From: Desulfovibrionaceae bacterium
Lineage (GTDB): Bacteria > Desulfobacterota > Desulfovibrionia > Desulfovibrionales > Desulfovibrionaceae
Length of the DNA: 64,000 nt
Direction: 5' to 3'
Assembly (NCBI GenBank): GCA_016932995.1
Contig: JAFGBU010000017.1
Location: forward strand, 28,337 to 92,336
Position 1 is the stretch's first letter. Each line of letters begins with the position of its first letter. The translations under genes and the position numbers were made by a program. Shown one piece after another: positions 13,578-13,736 of this stretch. The notes beneath the pieces were generated by a model. It saw only the letters and a list, made by a program, of their open reading frames with translations. It made no database searches and was not told the origin of the DNA.

Positions 13578-13617
13578 AAACAAAAGGGCCGCCGGCTTGT
13601 CTGCGCCTGCGGCCCTT
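13578..13617 (-). terminator. Attenuator terminator in the aromatic operon leader
   Basis: In the minus-strand transcript AAGGGCCGC (13617-13609) pairs perfectly with GCGGCCCTT (13592-13584). The helix can extend inwards by GGC/GCC past an A-G mismatch, leaving an 8-base loop. TTTTGTTT follows. It lies 51 bases before the ADH synthase ATG and after the leader peptide, so it would stop transcription before the first structural gene. Confidence 0.85.
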
Positions 13618-13675
13618 GAGAGGTTTTTCGGTTTCCCAGCCCCTTAAGGCTGCACCCCTCCCCCGACCGCGGCGC
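13603..13675 (-). promoter_or_regulatory. Candidate antiterminator of the aromatic operon leader
   Basis: GCGCCGCGG (13675-13667), which starts 4 bases after the last aromatic codon of the leader peptide, pairs with CCGCAGGCGC (13612-13603) with only one bulged A. The second strand overlaps the 5' half of the terminator stem, so the two helices exclude each other. A further perfect 9-bp pairing, CCCAGCCCC (13732-13724) with GGGGCTGGG (13643-13635), joins the start of the leader peptide to the bases just after its stop. Confidence 0.65.
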
Positions 13676-13736
13676 GGCTGTACCAGTACCAAAAATAATA
13701 GGCGGCAAAGCTGCTCTGGTTGGGGGGCTGGGTCAT
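13644..13736 (-). CDS. Aromatic leader peptide (attenuator sensor)
   Basis: A 30-codon open frame: ATG at 13736, TAA at 13646-13644. The peptide starts MTQPPNQSSFAA, continues YYFWYWY at residues 13-19, and ends SRAAVGGGVQP. Eight aromatic residues fall within codons 10-19, and Phe, Tyr and Trp are all present. This is the hallmark of a ribosome-mediated attenuator that senses several aminoacyl-tRNAs. It is followed by terminator and antiterminator hairpins and by an operon that makes exactly those three amino acids. No strong Shine-Dalgarno precedes the ATG (only GGGG 14 bases away), and the likely transcription start is within a few bases of it, so it may be nearly leaderless. Confidence 0.88.
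   Translation of the reverse strand: MTQPPNQSSFAAYYFWYWYSRAAVGGGVQP

Follow-up and report, generated by a model that had tools for sequence, protein, structure and literature searches.

A probable leader-peptide attenuator with Phe, Tyr and Trp codons ahead of an aromatic amino acid gene string in Desulfovibrionaceae

A 64,000-nt stretch of a Desulfovibrionaceae genome (GCA_016932995.1, contig JAFGBU010000017.1; here called the window) carries on its minus strand a string of aromatic biosynthesis genes, and raises the question of how their transcription might follow the supply of phenylalanine, tyrosine and tryptophan. An earlier, sequence-only reading had claimed that the whole operon is preceded by an attenuator and by a leader peptide carrying Phe, Tyr and Trp codons, and our comparison with related genomes supports this claim. 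The region 13774-13578 (minus strand) is very probably a ribosome-mediated transcription attenuator, predicted to sense the charging of the three aromatic tRNAs.

The gene string and its leader region

HMMs confirmed the gene string. The first structural gene was the ADH synthase (2-amino-3,7-dideoxy-D-threo-hept-6-ulosonate synthase, 12730-13527; TIGR01949, 389.9 bits), followed on the same minus strand by 3-dehydroquinate synthase II (DHQS II, 11747-12730), the chorismate mutase/prephenate dehydratase PheA (10635-11813), AroA (9310-10788), the prephenate dehydrogenase TyrA (8555-9343), TrpE (7025-8437), TrpG (6439-7044), TrpD (5438-6442), TrpC (4666-5445), TrpF (4022-4650, the domain part of the frame 4022-4816), TrpB (2835-4205) and TrpA (2064-2831). 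The starts of PheA, AroA, TrpF and TrpB are uncertain. The best models for TyrA, TrpE, TrpC and TrpF stayed under their curated cut-offs, and TrpB was recognized by its place and a PALP domain. From this HMM-confirmed content, one gene string makes all three aromatic amino acids, and the adjacency of the twelve genes suggests a single transcript.

The leader ORF is a short frame between a consensus-based promoter and the first gene, with a codon run matching the operon product. It spans 13736-13644 on the minus strand (30 codons plus TAA) and reads MTQPPNQSSFAAYYFWYWYSRAAVGGGVQP. As claimed, it runs exactly from the ATG at 13736 to the TAA at 13644, with YYFWYWY at residues 13-19 and Phe at residue 10. 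The control codons Phe10, Tyr13, Tyr14, Phe15, Trp16, Tyr17, Trp18 and Tyr19 lie at 13680-13709 (minus strand); comparable ORFs, with the aromatic class of these codons kept, were found in relatives. Upstream, on the same strand, we read a -35 hexamer TTGACA (13769-13774), 38 nt 5' of the ATG, and a -10-like TAGTGC (13745-13750) at a spacer of 18, located 8 nt 5' of the ATG. Transcription is thus predicted to start ~0-3 nt from the ATG, giving a leaderless mRNA. The start predicted from the promoter consensus spacing sits at the ATG, and not 3' of 13736. Directly 5' of the predicted promoter there is an AT-rich stretch (13790-13990), a possible upstream promoter element.

Between the ORF and the ADH synthase we recognized a predicted intrinsic terminator, ahead of the first structural gene. 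Its hairpin (13584-13617, minus strand; strands 3:4) has the arms AAGGGCCGC at 13617-13609 and GCGGCCCTT at 13592-13584, with T-rich sequence down to 13578, all at the bases originally proposed. Strand 3, CCGCAGGCGC (13603-13612, minus strand), is common to the antiterminator and the terminator, being complementary to both strand 4 and strand 2. The latter, GCGCCGCGG (13667-13675, minus strand), is the 5' strand of the antiterminator. It lies within the ORF and is one base shorter than in relatives. The proposed competing helix, GCGCCGCGG at 13675-13667 with CCGCAGGCGC at 13612-13603, proved real and has nine pairs and one bulged A. Because of this bulge, the window scores only 6/9 pairs in an ungapped anchor. 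There are 4 nt between the last aromatic codon and strand 2, and 20 nt between strand 2 and the stop. The geometry given by the sequence-only reading (4 nt and about 20 nt) is therefore exact here, but the 4-nt gap and the bulge are local to the window.

The thermodynamic fold which that reading had called for gave a split result. The 85-nt segment 13576-13660 folded at -43.0 kcal/mol (z -3.65), and 0/200 shuffles were equally stable, but the whole 191-nt leader segment was ordinary, with no fold signal (z -0.62, 50/200 shuffles equally stable). A simple terminator scan with a loop limit of 8 gave 0 matches (1.2 expected in shuffles). The exact core terminator pattern occurred 11 times in the 10 genomes searched, once in the window's genome, and 10 of the 11 occurrences were directly 5' of ADH synthase-DHQS. 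A variant of the core was present at the locus of a Phe-only paralog, described below.

Leaders, paired strands and promoters in the order

The DHQS II gene was found in 312 of the 348 genomes of the window's order. From these we picked 120 regions for diversity, one per genome, which together with the window gave 121 loci. An ADH synthase lay beside DHQS in 120 of them, forming the tree loci; L184 had none at that place and was left out. Named genomes, scanned for DHQS II, gave 121 loci, of which the best 80 were mostly labelled Desulfovibrio, Desulfovibrionales or related names.

A leader ORF containing a dense Phe/Tyr/Trp run was found 5' of the ADH synthase in 116/120 tree loci, including L210 and L201, which were read by hand (for L201, the leader of the first ADH copy). 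The four tree loci without a leader were L177, where the contig is cut, L214, L220 and L224. Runs in which at least 8 codons out of 10 were aromatic preceded the ADH synthase in 50/119 loci, and those with at least 7 in 86/119. Shuffles that preserved dinucleotides approximately reached these values in 0/2380 and 1/2380 cases, and other 400-nt segments of the same loci in 2/7972 and 8/7972 cases, respectively. Therefore, the aromatic runs were not made by chance. Among relatives the run varies between F, Y and W, keeping the aromatic class without a visible fixed residue pattern, and Phe and Tyr codons were present in all 107 leaders counted for them. A comparison of relatives had been suggested together with the claim, and in it the reading frame, the aromatic run and the pairing strands are conserved across the loci, whereas the surrounding peptide varies.

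Strand 2 consists of the codons just past the run, mostly Ala-Cys-Gly, Ala-Arg-Gly or Ala-Ser-Gly. Its UGC/UGU pairs with CCGCAGGC in the terminator arm, CGC/CGU with CCGCGGGC and AGC with CCGCUGGC, and thus the amino acid in the tail changes together with the RNA partner. We tried to anchor the strands in 201 leaders, a set that leaves out L210, and succeeded in 194; the strand-3 motif was missing in L019, L181, L197, L207 and L221-L223. Strands 2 and 3 formed 9/9 pairs in 130 of the anchored leaders and 8/9 in 51. The central pair, in 156 unique leaders, was T-A in 100, C-G in 37, T-G in 12, A-T in 4, C-A in 2 and T-N in 1. Double-change cells numbered 42, compared with at most 21 in 1000 permutations that ignore relatedness, and the paired fraction was 0.958, compared with at most 0.940. 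No excess over permutation was seen for the extra pair types (10, with a permuted mean of 9.4 and a maximum of 12) or for the number of pairs showing a double change (2, equal to the permuted maximum of 2). On a tree of 107 loci, the central pair changed from T-A to C-G eight times, and A-T arose twice. The covariation signal of 2:3 is mainly concentrated in this central pair.

A leader's own arms outpaired the mean of swapped arms in 130/158 leaders, and beat all 50 shuffles in 102/158. Spacing was examined in 148 leaders with at least 8/9 pairs at 2:3, a set that does not include the window. The distance from run end to strand 2 was exactly 6 nt in 118 of these, and that from strand 2 to the stop was 12 nt in 39, 15 nt in 49 and 18 nt in 32. 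In 4/148 leaders strand 2 was in another reading frame, showing that the bases are held and not the tail peptide. Judged by the pairing and the compensatory changes in 2:3, the putative antiterminator 2:3 and terminator 3:4 are mutually exclusive.

For the promoters we surveyed 177 non-redundant leaders by the position of an exact TTGACA relative to the ATG. The hexamer was 35-40 nt before the ATG in 87 leaders (group A, of which 71 had trpE in the operon) and 48-80 nt before it in 74 (group B); the remaining 16 had none at 30 nt or more from the ATG. As background, TTGACA occurred in 491/32247 80-nt segments of the same loci. In group A, a -10-like hexamer ended 6-8 nt ahead of the ATG in 76/87 leaders. 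Shine-Dalgarno-like 4-mers were found in 3/87 leaders of group A, 47/74 of group B and 5/16 of the rest, and at 156/177 ADH-synthase starts. From the promoter spacing and the scarce Shine-Dalgarno sequences, group A, including the window, is predicted to be leaderless. The Nitratidesulfovibrio-type leaders L029, L030 and L032 had TTGACA 73 nt before the ATG.

Trp codons, other families and a Phe-only paralog

We compared the Trp codons of the leaders with the trp gene content of the 120 tree loci and with separate trpE searches of the genomes. All 58 leaders with trpE in the operon, including the window's, had Trp codons. With trpE elsewhere in the genome, 30/42 leaders had Trp codons, and two more loci had no readable leader. 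Where trpE was not found, meaning no match at 1e-50 or at 1e-10 in genomes of which several are 83-93% complete, Trp codons were present in 1/9 leaders, with two more loci lacking a leader. The single exception was L173, in which the contig ends inside the operon. Of seven leaders with trpE context unclear or outside the search, six had Trp codons. G006 and G333 gave one partial trpE match each (31% and 36% identity), which we infer to be a PabB-like relative. Fisher's test gave 1.3e-6 for Trp codons against trpE, a value that ignores relatedness and includes the misread L210. On the tree, all six losses of Trp codons and one regain fell on trpE-minus branches (52% of the branch length). In terms of sequence, then, Trp codons are associated with trp genes, but the tracking of gene content is not strict, because Trp codons are missing from 12 and kept in 30 of the 42 leaders whose trpE lies elsewhere.

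In the genus g18, trpE was in the string of 0/19 fetched regions of known context and was present in 73/79 genomes. The best 30 of those trpE loci all had a WW or WWW leader (30/30), as had 18 of 22 further separate trpE loci (all except L271, L277, L281 and L282). Separate trp operons thus had their own short WW/WWW leaders in 48 of the 52 loci read (L115-L144 and L267-L288).

Two of the loci without an aromatic leader 5' of the ADH synthase, L214 and L220, come from genomes without a trpE match at 1e-50. L221-L223, from the genus g40 with no convincing trpE, had an AT-richer switch with CCACGGCAC as strand 3, and Phe and Tyr but no Trp codons.

Beyond the order, DHQS II was found in 90 of 297 genomes sampled from the phylum, 11 of the 90 being from the window's own family. 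Among 40 loci from other families, six had no ADH synthase beside DHQS in the stretch and one was cut, which left 33 usable. A leader with at least 6 aromatic codons in a run of 10 was found in 29/33 usable loci, in 14 of 18 families outside the window's own. The strand letters differed there, for example GGUCUGCCC with GGGCAGACC. We paired the tail, taken from the end of the run to 12 nt beyond the stop, with the 90 nt that follow, and 21/29 leaders had a pairing reached by at most 5 of 100 shuffles; it was weak in L347, L352, L354, L359, L360, L363, L367 and L368. TTGACA was mostly 46-72 nt before the ATG in these families, and L331 also had an upstream ATG at 38. The leader arrangement looks older than its sequence, judging by these comparisons.

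The window's genome has three ADH synthases. The stand-alone paralog L003/L370 (contig C6) had a leader reading MDTPAAGHPFSFFGFFFFMNACGPGVRV, with the Phe-only run FSFFGFFFF. TTGACA was 37 nt before its ATG, and strand 2 was GCCTGCGGTC, with GGGCCGCAGGC in the terminator 5' arm; the layout of strands 2, 3 and 4 matched that of the window leader. This leader is likely a Phe-specific isozyme switch. No leader was found upstream of the other paralog in this genome, L002. We read upstream of 17 stand-alone or second copies (L002, L370-L372, L390-L401 and L403), some of them distant relatives of the paralog, and found a leader at seven: L370, L371, L372, L393, L395, L400 and L401. The copies L371 and L372, from relatives, also had Phe runs, and the aromatics of the L370, L371 and L372 leaders were wholly or nearly Phe. 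An ORF upstream of L397 (5 of 10 aromatic) was rejected as a leader, since it extends to the ADH start. In E. coli the DAHP synthases are separately regulated, and the Phe-only paralog, if the reading is true, would be an attenuator counterpart of them.

In L065, L072, L073, L075, L082, L171, L172, L174-L176 and L199, several of which are labelled Mailhella, the ADH synthase was present in tandem copies, and every copy had a leader of its own. Their first copies had leaders with F, Y and W codons, and the second copies with F and Y only. In L065, L072, L073, L075 and L082, a divergent trpEGD lay 5' of the tandem ADH synthases.

Proposed mechanism, alternatives and known systems

In the proposed mechanism, transcription would begin at the ATG or no more than about 3 nt away from it, and the leader peptide would be translated from a leaderless mRNA. 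A shortage of Phe-, Tyr- or Trp-tRNA would make the ribosome stall within the run; strand 2, left free, would then pair with strand 3 ahead of the synthesis of strand 4, resulting in antitermination. With an ample supply of all three, strand 2 would instead be blocked by a ribosome on the tail or at the stop codon, and transcription would stop near 13580 at the 3:4 terminator. The expected logic is OR, one scarce aromatic amino acid being sufficient.

We modelled these states with a fold without strand 4 and an assumed ribosome footprint. In the window, stalls at Phe10, Tyr13, Tyr14, Phe15, Trp16 and Tyr17 gave P(2:3) = 1.00, in agreement with the claim that a stall on the early Phe/Tyr/Trp codons frees strand 2. 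Each of the three amino acids thus has at least one effective codon in the model. P(2:3) was 0.61 for a stall at Trp18 and 0.29 at Tyr19, where the ribosome partly masks strand 2, and 0.17 without a ribosome, the window itself leaning to a 1:2-type protector fold. Such a trpL-like protector was not general: 1:2 was within 3 kcal of 2:3 in only 34/148 leaders. The mean P(2:3) of the 148 leaders was 0.94-0.96 for stalls two to six codons before the run end, 0.55 on the last aromatic codon and 0.80 without a ribosome.

With the stop codon in the A site, the assumed footprint covered 0 nt of the 9-nt strand-2 core in 56/148 leaders, 3 nt in 49, 5 nt in 1, 6 nt in 39 and 9 nt in 3. By its 20-nt distance from strand 2 to the stop, the window belongs with the uncovered leaders. 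Timing may therefore decide the terminating step, which may rest on a ribosome still crossing the tail as strands 3 and 4 emerge. At equilibrium, the full window RNA formed the terminator in each of the eight ribosome states modelled, and thus control must be kinetic.

Could the ribosome instead be halted by the peptide itself? A nascent-chain arrest peptide, for example one binding a free aromatic amino acid, would not have tRNA charging as its signal. It would agree with runs of bulky residues at a near-fixed distance from strand 2, and it has a counterpart in TnaC, for which sensing of free Trp is reported (PMC8429421). However, the variation of the run among F, Y and W without a visible fixed pattern, the absence of Trp from 8 of the 9 leaders without a found trpE, and the paralog that keeps the RNA scaffold with a Phe-only run all indicate that the codon class is kept, and not the peptide sequence. 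We regard an arrest peptide as improbable. Even less probable is a constitutive terminator or transcript-end hairpin that just dampens transcription beside a small functional aromatic-rich protein. A permissive search did find a hairpin and a T-rich tail 3' of 202/202 leader rows, as this alternative would predict, but strand 2 shows covariation with an arm of the terminator itself, strand 3, and four leaders have strand 2 in a different frame. For a functional protein, six leader peptides searched against Pfam and NCBIfam gave 0 matches. Control of the operon by a T-box, a riboswitch or a protein-bound leader has the slightest chance of all, and nothing was found in its favour. For the catalogued RNA classes, no Rfam family reached its gathering score in the window, and 13540-13800 gave three Rfam hits far under gathering scores (best E 0.063).

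Attenuation by the charging of aromatic tRNAs, the preferred reading, resembles that of E. coli trpL and pheL in having control codons for the operon product, a strand 2 that pairs with the terminator 5' arm, and an intrinsic terminator ahead of the first gene. From Trp16 to strand 2 there are 16 nt here, and 17 in trpL. Unlike in trpL and pheL, the run here has three amino acids, strand 2 is in the ORF with the stop 3' of it, a 1:2 protector is not general, and the start is predicted to be leaderless. The sequence-only reading held that known systems sense one amino acid each, which is wrong, as more than one is sensed by the leaders of ilvGMEDA and thr. The ilv and leu leaders also share a tail after the control run with the present leader; ilvL and leuL have a codon tail beyond the control codons, so such a tail is not unique. 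Those leaders belong to branched-chain and threonine pathways, whereas here we have aromatic genes, in another phylum, with gene-content tracking. In its available part, PMC1183508 names the ilvGMEDA, thr and leu operons as attenuated.

Leader-peptide attenuation is of a known kind, and an attenuator at the aromatic operon was already listed in 2005: Table 7 of Song et al. (PMC1173090, as far as accessible) has a putative attenuator for D. vulgaris aroA'>aroB'>aroQ-pheA>aroF>tyrA>[trp operon]. The entry is structure-based, taken from the Merino website, and is alike in operon type and position. Unlike the present analysis, it comes, in the accessible part, without covariation, control codons, promoter or element phylogeny, and the term 'leader peptide' is absent from the main text. 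In mycobacteria, which are rich in leaderless transcripts, a study of such transcripts (PMC4633059, accessible part) proposed attenuation for cysteine-rich upstream ORFs. These are likewise short and enriched in the regulated amino acid, but they concern cysteine in an unrelated lineage, and no terminator/antiterminator is described in that part. Among the literature matches listed (titles and abstract starts, with subscription papers mostly outside reach), none had a comparable leader peptide in the phylum. As far as these searches go, the three-aromatic leader peptide, its covariation, phylum spread and gene-content match, the predicted leaderless start and the Phe-only paralog are new, and all of these except the leader peptide itself go beyond the sequence-only reading.

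Taken across the phylum, the leaders probably represent a codon-programmable attenuator, in which a fixed RNA scaffold would be edited by evolution to F+Y+W for the complete operon, F+Y where trp was lost, F for the stand-alone ADH-synthase isozyme and WWW for split-off trp operons, and which would be leaderless in the window's clade. If the attenuator reading is true, one short RNA would integrate the charging of three tRNAs and set a twelve-gene string with ADH-synthase/DHQ-synthase-II entry, offering a handle on aromatic control in the phylum. The rule that control codons follow the pathway can be tested directly on the natural series F+Y+W, F+Y, F only and WWW. In the window's clade, translation and transcription would begin at one base, and the predicted leaderless leader peptide would test the coupling of ribosome and RNA polymerase without a Shine-Dalgarno step.

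The distance from the leader stop to the ADH synthase was ~260-305 nt in L029, L030, L032, L034, L180, L181, L183, L190 and L192, longer than in most loci.
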